Assembly (NCBI RefSeq): GCF_023273855.1
Contig: NZ_CP096884.1
Coordinates: forward strand, 2,976,001 to 3,040,000
Direction of reading: 5' to 3'
Source of the DNA: Seonamhaeicola sp. ML3
Lineage (GTDB): Bacteria > Bacteroidota > Bacteroidia > Flavobacteriales > Flavobacteriaceae
Length of the DNA stretch: 64,000 nucleotides
Under the pieces are notes generated by a model. That model was not told the origin of the DNA. It made no database searches and saw only the letters and a list, made by a program, of their open reading frames with translations. Shown piece after piece: positions 1 to 10,105 of the stretch; positions within the stretch are counted from its first letter, which is position 1; every line of letters begins with the position of its first letter. Made by a program: the position numbers and the translations under genes.

Positions 1-1013
1 TATTTCCTCATAAAGGTTGAAATATGATTTTCAATAGACTTCTCTTTTATCGGCTTATCTTTAATCTTAATTTTTGGTAAATTTCTATGAATAATCATGT
101 CACTTAATTTTCTTAAAACAAAATCTCCATGATTCTGCCAATGCTTCATTGCAGTTATGATGTCGTAATCATCTAAGCCGGAAAAAACCTCAAGAGTTTT
201 CGAAGAAAAATTCTCCATACTTATTTTGTTCTCAAAAAAATAGGAAAGCGTTTTCGTAACAAATACATCTTCACCAATATCGTGTAATTGCTTAGCACGT
301 TTTAACACTCTTATTAACAATTGTTCTGCGGCCAATCCTGTTTTATGCAAATACACCTGCCAATACATTAAGCGCCTTGCAACTATAAACTTTTCAACAC
401 TGTATATACCCTTCTCTTCTATTACGAGCTCGTTATCGACAACGTTAAGCATAGTTATAAGACGTTCACTGTTTATGTTGCCCTCGGCTACACCTGTGTA
501 AAAACTATCACGCTTTAAGTAGTCTGCACGATCCATGTCTAATTGCCCCGAAATTAACTGACACATAAAGTTTCGATGATAATCTCCTTTGAAAATATTT
601 ATTGCAAGCGTTAAATTTCCGTTAAATTCATCATTTAACTTTTCCATAAATAAGAGGGAAATATCCTCGTGAGAAACGTTGTTAACTATACTGTGCTCCA
701 TGGCATGAGAAAAAGGGCCATGACCAATATCATGAAGAAGAATAGCTATGTATAAGGCGGATTCCTCCTCATTAGAAATTGTAACTCCCTTAAAACGAAG
801 TACATTAACAGCCTTTTGCATCAAGTACATACATCCTATAGCATGTTGAAATCTCGTGTGATTTGCGCCTGGATATACCAAGTAAGACATACCCATTTGG
901 GTAATACGCCTTAATCTTTGAAAATATTTATGCTGGATTAAATCAAAAATCAAAGAATTGGGAATTGTAATAAATCCGTAAATTGGATCGTTCAATATTT
1001 TAAGTTTGTTCAA
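1..1013 (-). CDS. HD-superfamily phosphohydrolase (3' end outside window)
   Basis: The open frame runs without a stop from a TTG at 1013 to the window edge, so the C-terminus is missing (about 337 codons seen). Residues 52-58 read HTRFQHA and residues 94-98 read HDIGH, the histidine/aspartate metal-binding set of HD phosphohydrolases of the dGTPase/SAMHD1-like group. The likely activity is hydrolysis of a nucleotide phosphate in the cytoplasm; the exact substrate cannot be read from sequence. No ATG exists between the upstream stop (1029-1031) and the conserved N-terminus NKLKILNDPIYGF, so TTG is the best start. A -7 box on this strand at 1039-1046 supports it. The gene is divergent from porX with a 59-bp gap. 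Confidence 0.85.
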   Translation of the reverse strand, partial: MNKLKILNDPIYGFITIPNSLIFDLIQHKYFQRLRRITQMGMSYLVYPGANHTRFQHAIGCMYLMQKAVNVLRFKGVTISNEEESALYIAILLHDIGHGPFSHAMEHSIVNNVSHEDISLLFMEKLNDEFNGNLTLAINIFKGDYHRNFMCQLISGQLDMDRADYLKRDSFYTGVAEGNINSERLITMLNVVDNELVIEEKGIYSVEKFIVARRLMYWQVYLHKTGLAAEQLLIRVLKRAKQLHDIGEDVFVTKTLSYFFENKISMENFSSKTLEVFSGLDDYDIITAMKHWQNHGDFVLRKLSDMIIHRNLPKIKIKDKPIKEKSIENHISTFMRK

Positions 1014-1038
1014 ACTTTCAGAATTGTGTTAATTTCCA

Positions 1039-1046
1039 CAAATATA
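1039..1046 (-). promoter_or_regulatory. -7 promoter box of the HD hydrolase gene
   Basis: On the minus strand this reads TATATTTG, an exact match to the Bacteroidota -7 element TAnnTTTG. It lies 26 bases before the proposed TTG start. No well-spaced -33 TTG is visible, so only the -7 half is supported. Confidence 0.45.
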
Positions 1047-1072
1047 GCATTAACAAATAACAAAGCGGCTTA

Positions 1073-2626
1073 ATGAGCAAGATACAAATACTATGGGTTG
1101 ACGATGAAATCGATTTACTAAAACCCCACATTATATTTTTAGAACAACGCAATTATAATGTTACAACCTGTCTCAGCGGCAGCGATGCTATAGATATATT
1201 AAGTGAAACTAAATTTGATATTGTATTTCTGGACGAAAACATGCCCGGAATTACCGGTCTTGAAACATTGAACGAAATAAAAGAGATTCAAGATAATCTT
1301 CCCGTTGTGATGATTACTAAGAGCGAAGAAGAATATATCATGGAAGAAGCTATTGGCAATAAAATAGCCGATTATTTGATTAAACCAGTAAACCCAAATC
1401 AAATTCTCCTAAGCCTAAAAAAGAATTTAGACCATTCTAGACTTGTTTCCGAAAAAACAACATCTAACTACCAACAAGAGTTTAGAAAAATAGCTATGGA
1501 TTTAACCATGGTTAATTCTTATGAGGAATGGGTTGAGCTTTATCAAAAGTTAATTTATTGGGAAATACAACTAGAAGACATTGAAGATTCTGGAATGTTT
1601 GAAATTTTGGAGTCTCAAAAAACAGAGGCAAATATTCAGTTTGGCAAGTTTATAGAGAAAAATTACCCCAAATGGTTTCAAAATGATTGCGAAAGCCCAA
1701 TAATGTCTCATACACTATTTAAAGATTTGGTTGTTCCTGAAATTAGCAAATACCAACCTACATTACTTGTGGTGATTGACAACCTAAGGTATGACCAATG
1801 GAAAGCATTTGAACCGGTAATTAGTAATTATTTTAAGAAAGAAAAGGAAGAAGCTTTCTTTAGTATTTTGCCCTCTGCAACCCAATATGCTAGAAATGCA
1901 ATTTTTTCGGGTTTGATGCCAAGTGAAATGGAACGCCTGTATCCAAATTATTGGAAAAACGATACAGATGAAGGTGGAAAAAATATGTTCGAATATGAAT
2001 TTCTTGATGCACAAATGAAGCGTTTGGGCTTAGAGCACTTAAAATATGAGTATTTTAAAATCACAAACCTTAAAAAAGGTAAAAAACTGGCTGATAACTT
2101 TAATGCACTTAAAAAAAATGACCTTTCGGTTATTGTTTACAACTTTGTAGACATGCTATCGCATGCTAAAACCGAAATGGAGGTTGTAAGAGAGTTGGCA
2201 TCTAACGATAAAGCATACAGATCTTTAACACTTAGCTGGTTTAAGAACTCTCCGCTTTTAGAAATTGTACAACATGCACAACAATTAGGCTTTAAGTTGA
2301 TTTTAACAACAGATCACGGTACAATTAATGTAAAAAACCCTTCAAAAGTAATTGGAGATAGGGATACGAGTTTAAATCTAAGATACAAGACCGGAAGAAG
2401 TCTAACCTATGACCATAAGGATGTATTTGAGGCAAAGAAACCGAATGAAATATATTTACCATCAATAAACATGAGTAGCTCATACATATTTGCCAAAAGC
2501 GATTTATTTTTTGCCTATCCTAATAACTACAACCACTACGTGAGCTATTACAGAAACACATATCAGCACGGAGGTGTGTCTCTAGAGGAAATGGTAATTC
2601 CTTTTGTTGTTTTATCTCCAAAATAA
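1073..2626 (+). CDS. porX: PorX-like response regulator with PglZ domain
   Basis: This 517-residue protein has an N-terminal receiver domain (residues 4-120; acidic pocket D10-D11, phosphoacceptor D54, conserved K104) joined to a C-terminal PglZ/alkaline-phosphatase-type domain (about 200-515; LVVIDNLRYDQW and TTDHGT metal-site motifs). This architecture and length are those of PorX, which works with the kinase PorY and a sigma factor to control type IX secretion and gliding genes. No DNA-binding domain is present, in keeping with PorX acting through protein contacts and its phosphodiesterase-like domain. The ATG at 1073 begins the conserved MSKIQILWVDDE. tsaE follows on the same strand after about 90 bp. 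PorX presence implies the organism has a T9SS, although no T9SS structural gene lies here. Confidence 0.93.
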   Translation: MSKIQILWVDDEIDLLKPHIIFLEQRNYNVTTCLSGSDAIDILSETKFDIVFLDENMPGITGLETLNEIKEIQDNLPVVMITKSEEEYIMEEAIGNKIADYLIKPVNPNQILLSLKKNLDHSRLVSEKTTSNYQQEFRKIAMDLTMVNSYEEWVELYQKLIYWEIQLEDIEDSGMFEILESQKTEANIQFGKFIEKNYPKWFQNDCESPIMSHTLFKDLVVPEISKYQPTLLVVIDNLRYDQWKAFEPVISNYFKKEKEEAFFSILPSATQYARNAIFSGLMPSEMERLYPNYWKNDTDEGGKNMFEYEFLDAQMKRLGLEHLKYEYFKITNLKKGKKLADNFNALKKNDLSVIVYNFVDMLSHAKTEMEVVRELASNDKAYRSLTLSWFKNSPLLEIVQHAQQLGFKLILTTDHGTINVKNPSKVIGDRDTSLNLRYKTGRSLTYDHKDVFEAKKPNEIYLPSINMSSSYIFAKSDLFFAYPNNYNHYVSYYRNTYQHGGVSLEEMVIPFVVLSPK

Positions 2627-2690
2627 TCCATGAAATACATAAAACATCGTTAAAAAACACTTTTTCTTAGGTTTTTAGAAAATTTATCTA

Positions 2691-2698
2691 TAGTTTTG
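2691..2698 (+). promoter_or_regulatory. -7 promoter box of tsaE
   Basis: TAGTTTTG matches TAnnTTTG. It lies 19 bases before the TTG at 2718 and only 10 before the TTG at 2709, which favours 2718 as start. No clear -33 TTG. Confidence 0.4.
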
Positions 2699-2717
2699 TA
2701 GTATATATTTGTTCAGT

Positions 2718-3125
2718 TTGGAAATAAATTATTTATTAGAAAGCGTTGATGACGTAGCTAAGGAGTTAATTGATAAAGTAGACAGTAAGATTCTATTTCT
2801 TTATGGAGAAATGGGAGTCGGTAAAACTACTTTAATTAAATCTCTAGTGAAATGCTTAGGGAACCATGAAGAAGTAAGCAGCCCAACGTTCTCGATAGTT
2901 AATGAATATTTAGCTGGTCAAGACTTGATTTACCACTTTGATTTATATAGAATTAAAGATTTGGAAGAGGCCTGTGATTTTGGAATAGAAGATTATTTGT
3001 ACTCTAACAATTGGTTAATTGTAGAATGGCCAGAACTCATTGAACCCATAGCCCCTGAACGACTATCTAGAATAGAAATCGTTTTAAATGATGATTATTC
3101 CAGAACGTTGAGATTATTAAATTAA
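2718..3125 (+). CDS. tsaE: tRNA threonylcarbamoyladenosine ATPase TsaE (YjeE)
   Basis: TsaE is the ATPase that, with TsaB, TsaC and TsaD, makes the t6A modification at position 37 of ANN-decoding tRNAs. The P-loop GEMGVGKTT lies about 30 residues in, followed by the family motifs SSPTFSIVNEY and YHFDLYR, and WLIVEWPE near the C-terminus. At about 135 residues the length is normal. There is no ATG near the N-terminus. TTG 2718 gives MEINYLLE, like known family starts; TTG 2709 would add three residues but sits too close to the -7 box. The gene lies downstream of porX, apparently with its own promoter. Confidence 0.9.
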   Translation: MEINYLLESVDDVAKELIDKVDSKILFLYGEMGVGKTTLIKSLVKCLGNHEEVSSPTFSIVNEYLAGQDLIYHFDLYRIKDLEEACDFGIEDYLYSNNWLIVEWPELIEPIAPERLSRIEIVLNDDYSRTLRLLN

Positions 3126-3286
3126 AAAGAATATTAACCTATAAAACAGCCAAAAAAGTACTAAAAACCAAAAAGAAAATAGCAGTTATTATCATTTTAC
3201 GGTAAAACCACATTCAGAATTTTAACAAACAAGTGATTTTAACATTTCTTTAACATTTGAGCGAAAAGTACACCATAGTTCTTATC

Positions 3287-3294
3287 TACATTTG
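3287..3294 (+). promoter_or_regulatory. -7 promoter box of the repeat-peptide gene
   Basis: TACATTTG matches TAnnTTTG, 31 bases before the ATG at 3326. A TTG at 3257-3259 is 27 bases upstream, longer than the usual 17-23 spacing. Confidence 0.45.
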
Positions 3295-3325
3295 GGGTAA
3301 TTAATTAATTAAATCCCTTAATAAA

Positions 3326-3616
3326 ATGAAAACTAAAAAGTACTTAATTGCTATCATGGTTTTAGGAGGCGTGTTGTTTTCAGCTTTTGCTACTAAAACA
3401 ATAAGTTCAGATGAAGCAAACACAAGAGTCGACAGAAAAACAAGACCAATCCTTGCTGAAACAAAGGTGGACAGAAAAACAAGACCAATCCTTGCAGAAG
3501 CAAAAGTTGACAGAAAGACAAGACCAATCCTTGCAGAAGCAAGAGTTGACAGAAAGACAAGACCAATCCTTGCAGAAGCAAGAGTTGACAGAAAGACTAG
3601 GCCAATCCTTGCATAA
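3326..3616 (+). CDS. Secreted small protein made of 13-residue tandem repeats
   Basis: I do not recognise this family. The 96-residue product has a signal peptide (KTKK, then the hydrophobic stretch LIAIMVLGGVLFSAFA) and a short SSDEANTR linker. From residue 35 to the end it carries five copies of a 13-residue unit, VDRKTRPILAEAK/R, the last cut to ten residues. Each unit is basic in its first half and hydrophobic/acidic in its second. The mature protein would be about 75 residues, nearly all repeat, and exported to the periplasm or outside. There is no lipobox and no known domain. The next gene starts inside its last codons, so the two are probably translated together. Function unknown; a structural, adhesive or peptide-precursor role are all open. 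Confidence 0.7.
   Translation: MKTKKYLIAIMVLGGVLFSAFATKTISSDEANTRVDRKTRPILAETKVDRKTRPILAEAKVDRKTRPILAEARVDRKTRPILAEARVDRKTRPILA
3428..3613 (+). repeat. 39-bp direct tandem repeat, 4.8 copies
   Basis: Units start at 3428, 3467, 3506, 3545 and 3584, the last cut at 30 bases. Units 3 and 4 are identical; the others differ at a few positions. The unit is 13 codons, so copy-number change keeps the reading frame. No spacers separate units, so this is not a CRISPR array. Confidence 0.95.
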
Positions 3617-4112
3617 GGATAAGTTCGCTAGTAAAAATTTAATAATAGGGAGTATTTTGGCTACTGCAATTGCCTTATCTCCCTATTTTTTTTCTTTGTA
3701 TGAAAGTGTACCTCAAACAAAAACATGGGAGACATTTTTATTTACTTACGAGAGTTCGGTTTTCGATAATGCATACTATGCTATGTGGGTTTTAACCGGA
3801 AAACTGATTCCTCTCTATCTATTATTCTTATGGTTTTTTACATGTAGACATTGGTGGTATCATGCACTTTTAGTACCTATAGCTATGTATATTTTCCAAA
3901 CATGTGTAGTTCTATTTGGTGATGCTAATATGGATGAGTTTCAGTTTTTATACATGATTCCAATAATGGCAATAGTTATACCAACAATATACCTTTTAAG
4001 AGCAAGAATGTTCAATAAAATTGCAGTAGCGACAAAAACAATGCAAGAATTTGAAGATGAATTTAAAGCATCACCTAAGAATTTCTGGGGAAAGGTAAAG
4101 CAGTACTTTTAG
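3609..4112 (+). CDS. Four-helix membrane protein of unknown function
   Basis: An open frame runs on in another frame through the repeat array from 3411, but the part upstream of 3609 is only the repeat read out of frame. The TTG at 3609 gives a 167-residue protein, MHKDKFASKN followed by four hydrophobic segments (about residues 11-31, 53-78, 82-104 and 113-131) and a charged tail ending KNFWGKVKQYF. The start overlaps the end of the repeat-peptide gene by 8 bases, which suggests translational coupling. Later starts (for example the ATA codons at 3642 and 3645) cannot be excluded. It ends convergently with the outer-membrane protein gene, overlapping it by 4 bases. I see no catalytic motif. 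Likely an inner-membrane partner of the secreted repeat peptide (inference from overlap only). Confidence 0.65.
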   Translation: MHKDKFASKNLIIGSILATAIALSPYFFSLYESVPQTKTWETFLFTYESSVFDNAYYAMWVLTGKLIPLYLLFLWFFTCRHWWYHALLVPIAMYIFQTCVVLFGDANMDEFQFLYMIPIMAIVIPTIYLLRARMFNKIAVATKTMQEFEDEFKASPKNFWGKVKQYF

Positions 4113-6523
4113 TCTAACCTATCACGCTCTTCCAATTCTAGTTGTGCTTTGTTGTTTTTAAGTTTTCGGTTACCGAATTTATAATTAAACCCAACGGTAA
4201 ACAACCTGTTTTCTAATCTAGACCTTAAAAACGAATCTTGGTTTAAATACCTTGCTCTTGCAGTAAAATTTTGTGTATTAAATACGTCCTGAACACCTAT
4301 ACTTAATGAGGCTTTATTGTTCCACAAAGCTTTTCTAAGGTTAATATTTAAGCCATGCATCTCACTTGTATCTGTTGGGCCATCATTTGTTGGTGACAAC
4401 AGGATATAAGATATGTTAGCAGTTAAACTTTTGTCTTTTAAAAGATTGAAGTAGTTTACTACTTCAGCGTAAACTGTCCATTGTTCTGCAGAAAGTGAAA
4501 CAGTATCGTCATCAGGAGCAAAAAACCTATTATTATAATAATAAACAGAAGAGAGTACATACAAACTCCAATCCTTTGCTATTTGAGTATAGGTGGTAAA
4601 ATCTAAGCCAAAAGAATAAGACACATCTGTATTGGTGTATTTGTATATCAACGCATTATTAATATTGTCCTGAAGTATAAATTGTATGGCAGGATTTTTT
4701 TCATACCTATAATAAAGCTCAAAAGTATAATCTCTATTAAATGTGTATCCAAGGGTAATTATATCATCAATTTGAGGCAATAAATTAGGGTCACCTAAGG
4801 TATAAGTATTGTCGTTTAAAAAGTACCTGAACGGGTTTAACTGACTGTATCTTGGTCTGTAAATACGTCTGTTATAGTTAAAATATATCTCATTATTATC
4901 ACCTATTCTATTAACAATATAAAGCGATGGGAAAAGATTAAAATAATTATTAATTGAAGCTTCGTTATTAGCTCTAGAAAACCCTTCTGTATCTGTATAT
5001 TCACCCCTTATGCCAGCTTTAATACTCCAAGATTCCCAATCTTTACTTAAGCTAATATAACCAGCAAAACTTGTTTCATCATATGAAAAAATATCAGAGT
5101 TTTCTAAATCTTCTTCGCGTTCATCGTCTTTAAATAGAAATTGATCAATAATATTATCGGAATCTATATTAGCAAACTTAACTCCTGTTTCTAGGGAGGC
5201 AGAATTGGGTAAAGGAAGACTATAATCTACCTGACTAGTATTGAGTTTAATAACTTGGCTTGAAAATGTTTGAAACTTATTTGTTCTGATAAGAGAATTA
5301 TCAGGGAATAAATAATCCGTGTCAACATTTTGGAAATTAGAAGTGTCGTAATTGGTATGATGTATGTTAAAAGTTAGTTCCTCACCAGGCTTTTTAAATT
5401 TGTGTACATAATCCAGATTAATAGCAATATTATAGGTTTCATCTACCCTAGGATTAAATGTATTGAATATAGAATCTAGAACGCCATTGGTGTTAAATAT
5501 TTCAGTTGAAGAGTTTGAGGTTTTTCTAGTGACTTTCCTGGGGGCTATTAACACAATAGAAGATAGTTTTAAGCTATTATCCTCATCAAAATCATACGTT
5601 ATCGTAGTACTAATATTTTGATTTGATGTTTCTTGAGTTCTTTTAAAACTGGTTTCCCAGCTCGAAAATATATTACCTGAACTATTAATGAAATTAATAG
5701 ACTCAGTGTTGTGTATAAAGTCTTTTCTTGGGCTAATGCTGTAATTAAGATAGGTGTTTAACTTTTTGGCCTTAAAAAAATGACTTGTACCTAGAGCAAA
5801 TTTAGGGAATTGAGAGCCTTGTTTATAATTTGCAAAAATGCTTCCGCTATAACCAGAAATAATGTTTTTGCTGGTTATGATATTTAGAACAGCACCTCCC
5901 TCTGCGTCATACTTTGCAGGTGGATTGGTAATAACCTCTACCGATTTGATATTGTTGGCTGGAGTTGATTCAAGAAGCTGAACAACTTCTTCTGCAGATA
6001 AATGTACTCGCCTGTCATTTATATATATGGTGGGTGGCGTGTTTTTTATGGTAATTTTATTATCATATACTAACACACCTGGAGTATGGCTGAGTAATTC
6101 CAATGTATTGTCATTAGACAATGTTGAATTCTCAACAGTAAATACCAACCTATCAACCATGCGTTTTACGGTTGGTCTTTTAGCAACAATGGTTACGCCT
6201 TCTAAAGACTGAAGATTTTCTTTTAAAACAATAGTTTTTAAATCTAAATCAGAATTTAAATCTATCTGTTGCTCATGAGTTTTATATCCTAAAAAGCTAA
6301 TTTTGATGGTATAAGTTGCAGCTTTTAAGTTTTCAATTTTAAATTTACCATCTTCTAGAGAAGTTGTACCCGAAATAATAGTGTTTTCTTTTAGCAATGC
6401 AACGTTTGAAAATGCTACAGCGTTATTTTGTTCGTCTTGAACAATTCCCTGTAATACAAAATCTTGTGAAAAAATATTTAGACAAAAGAGTACAAATGAG
6501 AGCGCTAATAATCTTTTTAACAT
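4109..6523 (-). CDS. Outer-membrane beta-barrel receptor-like protein with carboxypeptidase-regulatory domain
   Basis: The 804-residue product starts at the ATG at 6523. That places a classic signal peptide (MLKRLLALSFVLFCLNIFSQ) first; the extra codons up to 6586 are not signal-like, and a -7 box at 6541-6548 overlaps them. Residues 22-110 form a CarboxypepD-reg-like beta-sandwich (GIVQDEQNNAVAFSNV, GYKTHEQQ). Residues about 120-230 form a plug (VEVITNPPAKYDAEGGAVLNI). The rest is a 14-strand-type barrel of the OMP_b-brl_3 kind. These are TonB-receptor relatives often without a SusD partner, and none is adjacent here. The substrate is unknown; Bacteroidota use such proteins for peptide, metal or signalling functions. 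Confidence 0.85.
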   Translation of the reverse strand: MLKRLLALSFVLFCLNIFSQDFVLQGIVQDEQNNAVAFSNVALLKENTIISGTTSLEDGKFKIENLKAATYTIKISFLGYKTHEQQIDLNSDLDLKTIVLKENLQSLEGVTIVAKRPTVKRMVDRLVFTVENSTLSNDNTLELLSHTPGVLVYDNKITIKNTPPTIYINDRRVHLSAEEVVQLLESTPANNIKSVEVITNPPAKYDAEGGAVLNIITSKNIISGYSGSIFANYKQGSQFPKFALGTSHFFKAKKLNTYLNYSISPRKDFIHNTESINFINSSGNIFSSWETSFKRTQETSNQNISTTITYDFDEDNSLKLSSIVLIAPRKVTRKTSNSSTEIFNTNGVLDSIFNTFNPRVDETYNIAINLDYVHKFKKPGEELTFNIHHTNYDTSNFQNVDTDYLFPDNSLIRTNKFQTFSSQVIKLNTSQVDYSLPLPNSASLETGVKFANIDSDNIIDQFLFKDDEREEDLENSDIFSYDETSFAGYISLSKDWESWSIKAGIRGEYTDTEGFSRANNEASINNYFNLFPSLYIVNRIGDNNEIYFNYNRRIYRPRYSQLNPFRYFLNDNTYTLGDPNLLPQIDDIITLGYTFNRDYTFELYYRYEKNPAIQFILQDNINNALIYKYTNTDVSYSFGLDFTTYTQIAKDWSLYVLSSVYYYNNRFFAPDDDTVSLSAEQWTVYAEVVNYFNLLKDKSLTANISYILLSPTNDGPTDTSEMHGLNINLRKALWNNKASLSIGVQDVFNTQNFTARARYLNQDSFLRSRLENRLFTVGFNYKFGNRKLKNNKAQLELEERDRLD

Positions 6524-6540
6524 ATAACGGACAATTAACA

Positions 6541-6548
6541 CAAAACTA
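6541..6548 (-). promoter_or_regulatory. -7 promoter box of the outer-membrane receptor gene
   Basis: Minus strand reads TAGTTTTG, matching TAnnTTTG, 18 bases before the ATG at 6523. No well-spaced -33 element. Confidence 0.4.
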
Positions 6549-6708
6549 TAATAATTAATTGAGAATACATTGGGGAAAATCCACAATAAAAAAATCCAAA
6601 ATACTTACAAAAATTCATCTTGTAACATATCCAATCTTCATAATTTATTAAGATTTGTTTTTGATTACATTTTTTATTTGTAATTTGATTTTTCATAACT
6701 AACTATCC

Positions 6709-7908
6709 ATGGCCAAATCCCTTTCTCCGTTTACAAAGCAACAACTGTTGCCTCAAGAGGAAACCCTAGAAATATTTAAGCGAAAAGGTGAACTGTTTAT
6801 AGGTATACCCAAAGAAACCGCATTTCAGGAACGACGGATATGTTTAACTCCTGATGCTGTATATGCTTTGGTGAATAACGGGCATAGAGTGTTGTTGGAA
6901 TCTGGTGCAGGTGAAGGCGCTAGTTTTAGCGATAAAGATTATAGTGAAGCAGGTGCAGAAATAACCAAGGATACTGCAAAAGTTTTTGGGTGCCCTATGA
7001 TACTTAAAGTAGAACCCCCTACTCTAGACCAAATTAAACTCATAAACCCACAGGCACTTTTAATTTCGGCTTTACAATTAAAGACACAAACCAAGAAATA
7101 TTTTGAAGCTTTAGCTTCTAAAAGGATTACCGCTTTAGCTTTTGAGTTTATTAGAGATGCCGATGGTACTTATCCTGCAGTGCGCTCTCTTAGTGAAATT
7201 GCGGGCACTGCTTCGGTCTTAATCGCCTCAGAATTGCTATCGGACACAAAAGACGGAAACGGTTTAATGTTTGGTAATATCAGTGGTGTGCCACCTCTAG
7301 AGGTTGTAATCTTAGGTGCAGGTACTGTTGGTGAATTTGCTGCTAGAGGATCCATGGGTTTAGGTGCCAGCGTTAAAGTATTTGACAATTCCATAACCAA
7401 ATTAAGGTGTATACAAACAAACTTGGGGCGTCCATTCTTTACTTCAACAATTCAACCAAAAAATTTAACTAAAGCTTTAAAGCGTTGTGATGTTGTTATT
7501 GGTGCAGTTAGAGGTAAAAATAGATCACCAATTGTGGTATCTGAAAACCTGGTACAGGTTATGAAAAAAGGCGCTATTATAATTGATGTAAGTATAGACA
7601 TGGGTGGTTGTTTCGAAACAAGTGAGGTCACTTCGCATACCAACCCAACCTTTGTTAAACATGGTGTAATACACTATTGCGTACCAAATATACCTGCTAG
7701 GTATCCCCGAACTGCTTCGGTATCAATAAGTAACATATTTACCCCTTACCTAATGCAAATAGCAGAAGATGGTGGTATAGAAAATTCATTAAGAATTGAT
7801 CGGGGTTTAAGAAATGGATTGTATTTTTACCACGGAATTTTAACTAGCAAATCTGTAGGAGAATGGTTTGATTTGAGCTACAGTGATGCCAATTTGCTTA
7901 TTTTTTAA
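6709..7908 (+). CDS. ald: Alanine dehydrogenase (flavobacterial type)
   Basis: The 399-residue protein belongs to the alanine dehydrogenase/transhydrogenase family, which interconverts alanine and pyruvate plus ammonia with NAD. Visible marks are IGIPKE (31-36), ERRICLTP with the substrate arginine (about 41-48), LKVEPP (99-104), the Rossmann ILGAGTVGE (201-209), and IDVSIDMGG with PRTAS near the end. It has about 30 extra residues at the N-terminus compared with Bacillus enzymes. The catalytic histidine of the usual YLHLA motif appears as glutamine (ALQLK, Q123), so the catalytic detail or even the substrate may differ. It is monocistronic or cotranscribed with the small protein 23 bp downstream. 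Confidence 0.85.
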   Translation: MAKSLSPFTKQQLLPQEETLEIFKRKGELFIGIPKETAFQERRICLTPDAVYALVNNGHRVLLESGAGEGASFSDKDYSEAGAEITKDTAKVFGCPMILKVEPPTLDQIKLINPQALLISALQLKTQTKKYFEALASKRITALAFEFIRDADGTYPAVRSLSEIAGTASVLIASELLSDTKDGNGLMFGNISGVPPLEVVILGAGTVGEFAARGSMGLGASVKVFDNSITKLRCIQTNLGRPFFTSTIQPKNLTKALKRCDVVIGAVRGKNRSPIVVSENLVQVMKKGAIIIDVSIDMGGCFETSEVTSHTNPTFVKHGVIHYCVPNIPARYPRTASVSISNIFTPYLMQIAEDGGIENSLRIDRGLRNGLYFYHGILTSKSVGEWFDLSYSDANLLIF

Positions 7909-7931
7909 ATACAATTACCCTTTATCATACT

Positions 7932-8279
7932 ATGAAATTCATTCAGCGCTTGGGTTACTATCTTGGTGGTTTTTCCATAGGACTTATTATTTTGTTCTTT
8001 TTCTTAAACGGAAAGAAAGTATCATGTGATTATGGACCAGATGCACGTGTCCTAAAAAATATCAGTGGAAAAAAAATTATATATCCAAGTAACAATGATT
8101 CTACAATTGTAAATTACATTTTAAAACACGGGGAAATCAATTTTTCTGAAAGTACTCCTAGGCAAGAACCTTGTGCAATTTATTTAGTTGAAGGTCGTCA
8201 TAATGATAATTCGGTTAATTTTACTGTAGAAAACTGTGATAGTATTGCTACCATTTTAAATCTAAAAATTAACAAATAA
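7932..8279 (+). CDS. Small membrane-anchored protein, possibly DUF4258
   Basis: The 115-residue protein has one N-terminal transmembrane segment (about residues 8-26, YYLGGFSIGLIILFFFL). A soluble domain with three cysteines follows (SCDYGP, EPCAIY, ENCDS). It resembles the small DUF4258 proteins of flavobacteria, an assignment from memory of the N-terminal pattern that should be checked. It begins 23 bp after ald and ends 2 bp before the sugar transferase gene, so all three are probably one transcript. The topology places the domain in the periplasm. Confidence 0.6.
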   Translation: MKFIQRLGYYLGGFSIGLIILFFFLNGKKVSCDYGPDARVLKNISGKKIIYPSNNDSTIVNYILKHGEINFSESTPRQEPCAIYLVEGRHNDNSVNFTVENCDSIATILNLKINK

Positions 8280-8281
8280 CA

Positions 8282-8875
8282 ATGTTTAAACGAAGTTTTG
8301 ACTTTGTTTTTTCTCTTTTAGGGCTCATTGTCCTTTCGCCTCTATTATTACTAATAGCAGTTCTCATTAAGCTAGATTCTAAAGGGCCGACTTTATTCAT
8401 TCAGTCCAGAGTTGGCAGGGCGAATAAAGACTTTTACATTGTAAAGTTTAGAACAATGTTTGTTGAATCTGAAAAGGAGGGACTTTTAACCCTAGGAAAC
8501 GAAGATTCAAGAGTTACCAGGGTAGGTTATTTTTTAAGGAAGTATAAAATTGATGAATGGCCACAATTATACAATGTATTGAGGGGTGATATGAGTTTTG
8601 TTGGTCCCAGGCCAGAGTTGCGATATTATGTTAATTTTTATAAGAGAGAAGATTTGATTGTATTATCTGTACGGCCAGGAATAACGGGCATAGCATCATT
8701 AAAATATCGCAATGAAGTTGAACTTTTAGAAGCTGCAGATGATCCAGAAAGTTATTTCATCAATGTCATTATTCCTGATAAATTGGAACATAACAAAACA
8801 TACATACGCAATCGTTCCTTTTTTTTCGACTTAAAAATCATAGCCCTAACCATAGGTAAAGTCCTTTTTAAATAG
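8282..8875 (+). CDS. Short phosphoglycosyl transferase (bacterial sugar transferase, PglC/WcaJ-C type)
   Basis: This 197-residue monotopic enzyme transfers a sugar-1-phosphate from a UDP-sugar to undecaprenyl phosphate, the first step of glycan assembly at the inner membrane. It has the N-terminal re-entrant helix (about 10-32), KFRTM (55-59), the catalytic Asp-Glu dyad D91-E92 in KIDEWPQLYNVLRGD, VGPRPEL (107-113) and RPGITG. It lacks the large WcaJ N-terminal membrane region, so it is of the minimal PglC kind. It is 2 bp downstream of the small membrane protein and 111 bp upstream of a CapD-like gene. A second such enzyme lies at 37011, so the organism has two glycan-initiating transferases here. 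Confidence 0.9.
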   Translation: MFKRSFDFVFSLLGLIVLSPLLLLIAVLIKLDSKGPTLFIQSRVGRANKDFYIVKFRTMFVESEKEGLLTLGNEDSRVTRVGYFLRKYKIDEWPQLYNVLRGDMSFVGPRPELRYYVNFYKREDLIVLSVRPGITGIASLKYRNEVELLEAADDPESYFINVIIPDKLEHNKTYIRNRSFFFDLKIIALTIGKVLFK

Positions 8876-8915
8876 GGTTAAAAGACTATTAATTAAGCTA
8901 ATATTTCCTTAATAT

Positions 8916-8947
8916 TTGCTTTTAAAATATTTTATGACTACATTTTG
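8916..8947 (+). promoter_or_regulatory. Promoter of the CapD-like pseudoenzyme gene
   Basis: TTG at 8916-8918 and TACATTTTG at 8939-8947 are separated by 20 bases, the right geometry for a Bacteroidota promoter although the -7 box carries one extra T. It places the transcription start just upstream of the ATG at 8987. Confidence 0.5.
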
Positions 8948-8986
8948 ACCATAAAAAATACATTTAATCGATTCCCTCATCGAATA

Positions 8987-10105
8987 ATGAATAAGCGTCA
9001 ATACGAAAAACTACAGAACGTAATAGATGGATTTGATCTAGAAATTGATCAAATCAAATCTCAACAAAATCCGGATTTTAATTCCAGGATAAATTTCAAC
9101 AAAGATGTTATTTTAATTACTGGTGCAGCTGGCTCTTTAGGTGCAGAACTTGTAAAACAATTATTAGATATTAATTTCAAACAGCTCATATTGATAGATA
9201 ATAATGAAACTGCGCTATTTAGTCTTTCCAAAAAGTATGAAAAAGAGTTAGAGAACTCAAACACAGAGTTAATTCCTGTTGATGTAAGAGATGAAGAAGC
9301 GATGAATTGGCTTTTTGATAACTACAAACCATCAATAATATTTCATACAGCCGCATATAAAAATATTCCTTTAATGGAACATAACGCTTATGAGGCTATT
9401 AGACTTAATGTTTTTTCAACTAAACTCTTAGCAGACTTATCAGTTGCGCACCATGTTAAAAAATTTATATTCATTTCAACGAATAATGCTGTAAATCCAA
9501 TTAGTGTTGTTGGTAGAACCAAATTGGTATCTGAAGCTTACCTAAACTATCTGAAAATTCATTCTCAGACAGATTTTAAAGCGATTAGGCTCGGCAATAT
9601 TTTTGAATCTAAAAATTCTTTGCTTATAAAGTTCATGAAACAGGTGCAAAATGGAAAAGCCATTAGCATTGCAAATTCAGAATGCGAAAAATATTTTATC
9701 AATAAATTTAGAGCGTGTCAATTAATCTTAAAAACAACGGTTCTTACTAAAGGCGATGGTTTTGTTTTCACATACAACATGGGCAAACCTTTCAAGGTTG
9801 TTGAATTAGCAAAGCAAATTTCAAGTCGCATTGCAAAAACAGACAAATACCCTATTGAATTTATTGGACTTGAGGACTGGGAAAAGAAATCGGAAGAATT
9901 ATTGGCAGAGCACGAGAATATAGAATTCACAGTACATGATGATATTTTAAGGATAAAATCAAGTCAAGGATATACAGGAGAGAAAATTTCCTTTAATTTA
10001 ATTTCTGTTTTAAAAACAAATATGACCAATATAGATATTAAGAATCGATTAGAAGACTGTGTTTTAAAGCTACAAACTTCTCCTGCGCTTCTTTTCGCTA
10101 TTTAA
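8987..10105 (+). CDS. Degenerate CapD/FlaA1-type nucleotide-sugar dehydratase, probably inactive
   Basis: The 372-residue protein (ATG 8987; an in-frame TTG at 8945 overlaps the -7 box) has the fold of soluble UDP-GlcNAc 4,6-dehydratases. The NAD site ITGAAGSLGAE (about 44-54) and HTAAYKNIPLME are intact. Where the intact paralogue at 15794-17749 has STDKAVNP, this one has STNNAVNP (164-171), so the catalytic Asp and Lys are both Asn. The MGATKR motif has become VGRTKL, and the later LTHKEITRYFMTIPEA block is hardly recognisable (IANSECEKYFINKFRA). The frame is full length with no internal stops, so the gene is kept. A regulatory or binding role is more likely than catalysis. It overlaps the end of the proline dehydrogenase gene by 36 bp, tail to tail. 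Confidence 0.8.
   Translation: MNKRQYEKLQNVIDGFDLEIDQIKSQQNPDFNSRINFNKDVILITGAAGSLGAELVKQLLDINFKQLILIDNNETALFSLSKKYEKELENSNTELIPVDVRDEEAMNWLFDNYKPSIIFHTAAYKNIPLMEHNAYEAIRLNVFSTKLLADLSVAHHVKKFIFISTNNAVNPISVVGRTKLVSEAYLNYLKIHSQTDFKAIRLGNIFESKNSLLIKFMKQVQNGKAISIANSECEKYFINKFRACQLILKTTVLTKGDGFVFTYNMGKPFKVVELAKQISSRIAKTDKYPIEFIGLEDWEKKSEELLAEHENIEFTVHDDILRIKSSQGYTGEKISFNLISVLKTNMTNIDIKNRLEDCVLKLQTSPALLFAI

Follow-up and report, generated by a model that had tools for sequence, protein, structure and literature searches.

The locus consists of a short gene for a putatively exported peptide and, overlapping it in another frame, a gene for a four-helix membrane protein. Both lie downstream of tsaE in a 64-kb stretch of DNA from Seonamhaeicola sp. 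ML3, referred to here as the window (Table 1). The product of the first gene has a signal-like N-terminus (MKTKKYLIAIMVLGGVLFSAFA), which would be cleaved after AFA, a short spacer and five VDRKTRPILAE(A/T)(K/R) units. These read in order VDRKTRPILAETK, ...AEAK, ...AEAR, ...AEAR and VDRKTRPILA followed by the stop codon. The peptide has no lipobox. Tandem Repeats Finder (TRF) reports two arrays in the whole window, one of them at 3423-3625 (period 39, 5.2 copies, 90% matches, score 301). The open reading frame and TRF thus bear out the signal-like N-terminus and five near-identical units described in an earlier, sequence-only reading. So does the identity of two units at the DNA level: copies 3 and 4 show no difference over 39 nt, and the array is for this reason taken to have duplicated recently. 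The array also draws a Pfam match to Lysostaphin_N (E 0.0015; 19 bits, with a cut-off of 60), which was put down to repeat composition. A 55-aa lipoprotein-like ORF with a proline/glycine-rich tail lies elsewhere in the same genome (L122, 1417-1584), and resembles the peptide in the N-terminal region only (E 0.029).

Table 1. Coordinates of the features of the locus, numbered from the first position of the window
Feature	Position	Strand	Basis or remark
tsaE	2709..3125	+	Pfam PF02367, E 2.1e-34; conserved upstream neighbour
TTAACA-N5-TTAACA direct repeat, 11-nt period	3239..3255	+	upstream of promoter; shared with relatives
TACATTTG, -7-type element (TAnnTTTG) of the peptide's putative own promoter	3287..3294	+	comparison with relatives
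Predicted exported peptide gene, 96 aa	3326..3616	+	ORF; homologue of single-unit peptides (median 47 aa) in relatives
Predicted signal peptide MKTKKYLIAIMVLGGVLFSAFA	3326..3391	+	sequence and alignment with MKTKKYLIAIAIFGG.LF.AQA of relatives
Five tandem tail units	3428-3466, 3467-3505, 3506-3544, 3545-3583, 3584-3613	+	stop codon shortens the fifth
Four-helix membrane protein, 233 aa	3411..4112	+	open frame; ATG 3411 chosen by comparison; AF2 model

Start of the membrane gene and upstream elements

The sequence-only reading had placed the start of the membrane gene at TTG 3609, which is probably wrong. The membrane-protein frame differs from that of the peptide and is open from ATG 3411 to 4112. 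This ATG follows that of the peptide gene by 85 nt, a spacing seen in 100 of 159 overlapping units of relatives and more often there than any other. Counted from ATG 3411, the overlap is most likely 206 nt (50 nt + 4 x 39) and contains the entire array in two frames. In the membrane-protein frame the array DNA reads as 13-residue units of the TERQDQSLQKQEL type, forming an N-terminal extension. Because 39 is a multiple of three and the array is within the overlap, duplication in the window would have lengthened both proteins.

An in-frame ATG of the membrane gene lies within the peptide gene in 159 of 200 relatives; six others overlap without an in-frame ATG, 33 have separate genes and two have no peptide. 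The overlap is 59 nt in 89 of the 159. A start codon 3' of the peptide stop is absent in 153 of the 159 and an ATG other than the overlap ATG in 134, while 70 have no further ATG, GTG or TTG between the overlap ATG and the first membrane helix. The relative frame is constant in all 82 overlapping loci among 91 examined. No extra constraint from the membrane protein's N-terminus is visible in the overlap (third-position entropy of the peptide frame 1.29, against 1.31 in the signal h-region, 64 sequences), and a silent/replacing test of that N-terminus had four usable close pairs and was uninformative.

Two elements upstream of the peptide gene are shared with relatives. The first, TAnnTTTG, is the Bacteroidetes -7 promoter consensus. 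In 174 of 198 relatives it occurs in the 80 nt ahead of the peptide ATG, mostly 28-36 nt before it, against 7% of shuffled sequences; a TTG at the -33 distance is present in only 34 of 198. The second, TTAACA-N5-TTAACA, is present in 99 of 198 relatives in the 200 nt that precede the peptide gene (mean of shuffles, 0.2), and a pair of the same hexamers with spacing 4 or 6 in none of the 198. Across the genome of the window there are eight exact sites, against two for a reversed control. This direct repeat looks like a response-regulator site, and a Pho-like one by its resemblance to the B. subtilis PhoP box. Membership of a Pho regulon was considered and rejected: no recognisable pst or pho gene adjoins any of the eight sites, the module's own included (ORFs judged by eye). 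The passage of PMC3547664 consulted gives no box sequence. Other sites in the genome precede rpsF-like, TonB-receptor-like and other envelope-type ORFs (by eye).

Conservation of the pair and of the peptide tail

A first search, with the part of the membrane protein from position 3609 on as query, found the protein in 108 of 149 family genomes and in all seven genomes of the genus, own included; a 59-row profile found it in 275 of 397 family genomes. In a phylum sample it was present in 8 of 296 genomes, all eight in the Flavobacteriaceae, and in an order sample in 18 of 296, 16 in the same family (own included) and two in other families. A scan of genome contigs with a single-protein query gave two loci, in Aequorivita. 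Loci L001-L235 yielded 205 distinct membrane-protein units, of which five were dropped (score < 130) and 200 examined. Just upstream of the membrane gene, 198 of these have a signal-bearing short ORF (median 47 aa); none was found in L168 and L182. A direct search with the repeat peptide detected it in 43 of 149 family genomes. A comparable finder detects such an ORF on the sense strand in 196 of 200 units and on the antisense strand in 19 of 200, with a rate of 2% in shuffled DNA; in view of these controls and of the conservation, the idea of a spurious ORF was rejected. The earlier suggestion that two coupled genes form a unit, in which the peptide has a membrane protein dedicated to it, is therefore supported: the peptide is upstream in nearly every distinct relative and the membrane gene usually starts inside it, so that the membrane protein does not always stand alone with a downstream ATG and the peptide gene is conserved. 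Among the matches listed from the open-licence PMC literature, none describes the pair.

The genomic context is also conserved. In 193 of 200 relatives tsaE lies upstream of the module. Downstream, ald follows on the same strand in 126 of 200; in 71 it was not seen, and for three no judgement was possible. Between the module and ald of the window stands a TonB-type outer-membrane gene, which is on the opposite strand. An overlapping pair is also found in another family of the order (L245, 3802-4687), with an overlap of 89 nt and a longer peptide of divergent middle part whose tail retains GIDPRDIRIPSHG. On the tree, the window's membrane protein clusters with L170, L034, L059, L135 and L188, not with its congeners, a placement that may reflect either fast evolution or transfer. 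Some relatives of the membrane protein are doubled, with eight helices as judged by length and double matches: L086 (866-2137), L106 (776-2038), L108 (285-1511), L244 (3503-4483), L247 (3332-4366) and L249. Near all of these except L249 there is a small ORF of DNA-binding type by eye; the three such ORFs scanned have no Pfam match.

AF2 models of the membrane protein show four helices of membrane length, the first of them followed by a hairpin. The window model (mean pLDDT 84.9) draws the repeats as one long helix; pLDDT is 73.9 for the L018 model. Mean loop charges, rough values taken at fixed offsets, are -1.9 for TM1-TM2, +1.0 for TM2-TM3 and -3.2 for TM3-TM4, and this charge pattern suggests a topology with both ends cytoplasmic and acidic periplasmic loops. 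No confident match for the pair was found in Pfam, NCBIfam, PHROG or the PDB. For the membrane protein, three matches were set aside as too weak: the best in Pfam (E 0.012), one to the NCBIfam MAG1210 family in 16 of 59 members (best E 0.0011), and the best in PHROG (E 0.0025). A PDB sequence search with the profile gave nothing at E <= 1, and Foldseek nothing at E <= 0.001 for the window model. With VIA-align, the L018 model reached a best Z of 7.2 over 83 residues (rmsd 4.4), a range that the tool calls common. The PADLOC model PDLC00706, a CBASS-type '2TM' effector, weakly matches 25 of 59 membrane proteins at E <= 0.1 (best 8.6e-6). Run singly, 3 of 10 proteins matched weakly (E 0.008-0.019), and where a range is shown the partial likeness is to the second half of the protein. 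An effector of this class would have a cyclase as partner; the check for partner genes covered the ORFs of window positions 1-9000, by eye.

The peptides share a tail of the approximate pattern (I/V)(D/E)(K/R)xxIKxPxxG, with or without a lipobox at the N-terminus. The consensus of 64 equal-length peptides is T(T/A)(K/Q)(I/V)(E/D)(K/R)x(K/R)I(K/R)(V/I)PxxG, and the mean tail charge is +2.2. A strict form was defined as [VIL][DE][KR] within the last 22 residues. It occurs in 136 of 196 distinct peptides, so that about three in ten lack it, and in 10% of tails after shuffling. By N-terminus it is found in 40 of 68 peptides with a lipobox and 98 of 130 without. The sequence-only reading had raised processing at basic residues. 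The peptide ends in PxxG in 98 of 196 distinct cases, and this G precedes a further unit or a spacer in L211 and L084; for both reasons dibasic cleavage does not seem the obvious processing rule. Many pheromones diverge fast. The tails, by comparison, are fairly alike between genera, which counts against reading them as a ligand. Lipobox-like sequence is present in 67 of 196 distinct peptides. The canonical lipoprotein export signal (LES) of surface lipoproteins is C-X-K-(D/E)2 or Q-A-(D/E)2 after the lipidated Cys, with SDDFE as another flavobacterial form (PMC5080379). None of the 67 carries the canonical form. When the test was relaxed to any two neighbouring acidic residues from +2 to +6, the only version that covers SDDFE, one of 67 passed.

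The overlap, common and constant in frame as it is, invites the reading that the peptide is a leader that chiefly sets translation of the membrane protein. We regard this as quite improbable: the 33 non-overlapping units still have a signal-bearing ORF, the strict tail is kept in 28 of these 33 (and in 106 of the 159 overlapping units), and in several arrays the copies diverge mostly by silent changes in the peptide frame, as described below.

Multiplication of the tail

Internal arrays of the tail were found in 11 of 198 peptides. Counted by eye, there are five units in the window, six in L084, four in L213 and L214, three in L170, L203, L114, L115, L215 and L224, and two in L211; L114 and L115 belong to one genus, as do L084 and L203. 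A repetitive peptide is not the usual state: 187 of 198 showed no internal repeat of the tail, and the six congeners found have one tail apiece. The array state changes at least six times on a FastTree tree of 200 membrane proteins, a count that pools gains and losses and leaves support values unused. The window and L170 are neighbours on this tree and may have one array origin in common. Arrays occur in 9 of 33 separate units against 2 of 159 overlapping ones (Fisher p 2e-6, kinship ignored).

Multiplication is seen in other forms as well. In L086 (2893-4046), six near-identical 49-aa lipoprotein genes stand in a row, ~201 nt apart, followed by one membrane gene. A second peptide gene lies farther upstream in L156 and L187, and repeated pairs of peptide and membrane protein occur in L083, L194, L196 and L207.

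Codon differences between adjacent copies were sorted into silent and replacing changes. Four arrays are strongly silent (L084 14:0; L114 17:0; L115, of the same genus, 18:0; L213 7:1); L215 has 9:4, and L211 and L170 have 4:2 each. For L170, a 'core30' count of 2:12 compared the third copy out of register and was set aside. Three have no silent excess: L224 (2:4), where the count takes in sequence ahead of the first unit; L203 (11:13), aligned across a long divergent spacer; and L214 (2:13), whose last copies are out of register. The window has 8:4 with flanks and 6:1 in the core, and the pooled figure for all 11 arrays is 96:43. In most cases, though with exceptions, the copies thus differ silently when read in the peptide frame. 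Read in the membrane-protein frame, the same seven core changes of the window give 0:7, and the third frame gives 0:7 as well; since both wrong frames give this figure, the membrane-protein frame acts like a non-coding one here. On these seven changes, the peptide frame, not the N-terminus of the membrane protein, appears to be what is kept in the window array.

These counts bear on the idea that the arrays arose by neutral slippage in an unimportant tail. The silent changes in L084, L114 and L213 speak against it, as does the fact that the multiplied unit is the conserved tail in several lineages. The rarity of arrays, the identity and hence recent origin of copies 3 and 4 in the window, and the absence of a silent excess in L203, L214 and L224 as counted are in its favour, and relaxed constraint would also produce the concentration of arrays in separate units. 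On balance neutral slippage seems improbable.

A possible ligand and its membrane partner

Taken together, the observations are consistent with a conserved two-gene module in which the membrane protein has the tail as its ligand, either periplasmic or released, and multiplication of the tail raises the dose. We hold this reading tentatively, at a probability of about 0.45. The first gene would encode a small exported peptide with a signal-like N-terminus, carrying a lipobox in other lineages and none in the window, a short spacer and a basic C-terminal tail. The second gene, mostly started within the first in another frame, would encode a four-helix inner-membrane protein. The basic tail would be the active part, recognised by the membrane protein or passed on through it, with a possible signalling output. 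Tandem duplication in some lineages, that of the window included, would put more tails on each precursor and so raise the dose; in L086 multiplication of the entire peptide gene may serve as another route. A ligand whose dose matters is suggested because the tail is conserved, occurs on two kinds of N-terminus and has been multiplied. The role of receptor is assigned to the membrane protein because of charge and pairing, rather than through a confidently recognised domain or fold.

The nearest rival is a fixed small subunit: the peptide would stay anchored to membrane or lipid, with a tail that constitutively forms part of, or regulates, the membrane protein or some larger complex of the envelope. 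Extra units would then provide avidity and would not be released as ligands. The lipobox-like sequence in a share of the peptides and the near one-to-one pairing would suit such a subunit, and the conserved place beside tsaE suggests a housekeeping role. However, 121 of 159 overlapping units have no lipobox, so that cleavage of the signal would be expected to leave them without a lasting anchor, and the six gene copies of L086 and the 5-6 units per precursor elsewhere suit dose over fixed stoichiometry. A fixed subunit is thus rather unlikely, more plausible all the same than slippage or a leader. Known regulators of this kind include AcrZ, KdpF and CydX, small membrane proteins of ~30-50 aa tied to one membrane partner. 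The peptide of the module is likewise small with a single membrane partner; it differs in its signal-like N-terminus and in that the conserved, multiplied part would be an exported tail.

Yeast alpha-factor is made from a multi-copy peptide precursor. Fungal Kex2-processed repeat proteins (PMC7329392) are also multi-copy peptide precursors, and like them and alpha-factor the peptide of the module has a signal and then near-identical short units in a species-dependent number. By sequence, a signal followed by tandem near-identical units, the arrangement of a multi-copy precursor, was found in the window and 10 others of 198 peptides. Unlike the fungal precursors, the module is bacterial, mostly has one unit, has units that often end in PxxG rather than a dibasic site, and includes a dedicated, usually overlapping gene for a four-helix membrane protein; processing is putative.

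In bacteriocin and immunity pairs, the gene for a short exported peptide stands just ahead of one for a small membrane protein, the same order as in the module. A bacteriocin-like peptide with the four-helix protein as its immunity protein would account for this adjacency of a small exported peptide and a small multi-helix membrane protein and for the variable number of units, and in L247 genes for an HlyD-type protein and a C39-peptidase ABC exporter (4919-7253) lie ~2.4 kb from the module. That exporter was rejected as a component of the system: it came to light in L247 by chance, and the window's own genome has no Peptidase_C39 (PF03412) match (0 of 1). Reading the ORFs of window positions 1-9000 by eye revealed no gene recognisable as one for export or modification. 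With the membrane gene so widespread in the family, mostly beside tsaE, and the tail conserved, a bacteriocin is very improbable.

Finally, some likeness exists to the PG1828 family lipoprotein (NF050142), also a short lipoprotein. At E <= 0.1 its profile hits 16 of 62 peptides (best 4.9e-5). Among a set of 10, two have no match at this threshold; in the other eight the matches score 13.6-24 bits, below the NCBIfam cut-off of 50, and span at most profile positions 1-32 of 59, the signal/lipobox region. Wherever a range is given, both these and the BhsA/YhcN matches of the peptides are confined to the N-terminal signal region, and both were rejected.

The ligand reading can be extended to family-wide peptide signalling in flavobacteria, of a kind new for Gram-negatives, in which the gene for a basic tail ligand overlaps that of its own four-helix receptor and tandem duplication sets the dose, in the window and L170 inside two-frame DNA. 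This wider proposal is doubtful. More generally, the data suggest that a short tail does the work in a system not yet described. With its membrane gene in 275 of 397 family genomes and a peptide partner for which Pfam, NCBIfam and PHROG give no confident description, the module may represent an unannotated basic envelope or signalling function, and the repeated multiplication of the short tail marks the part worth testing. The window itself is a clear example from nature of a tandem repeat that has grown within a two-frame overlap: most differences between its copies are silent when read in one frame and replacing when read in the other.
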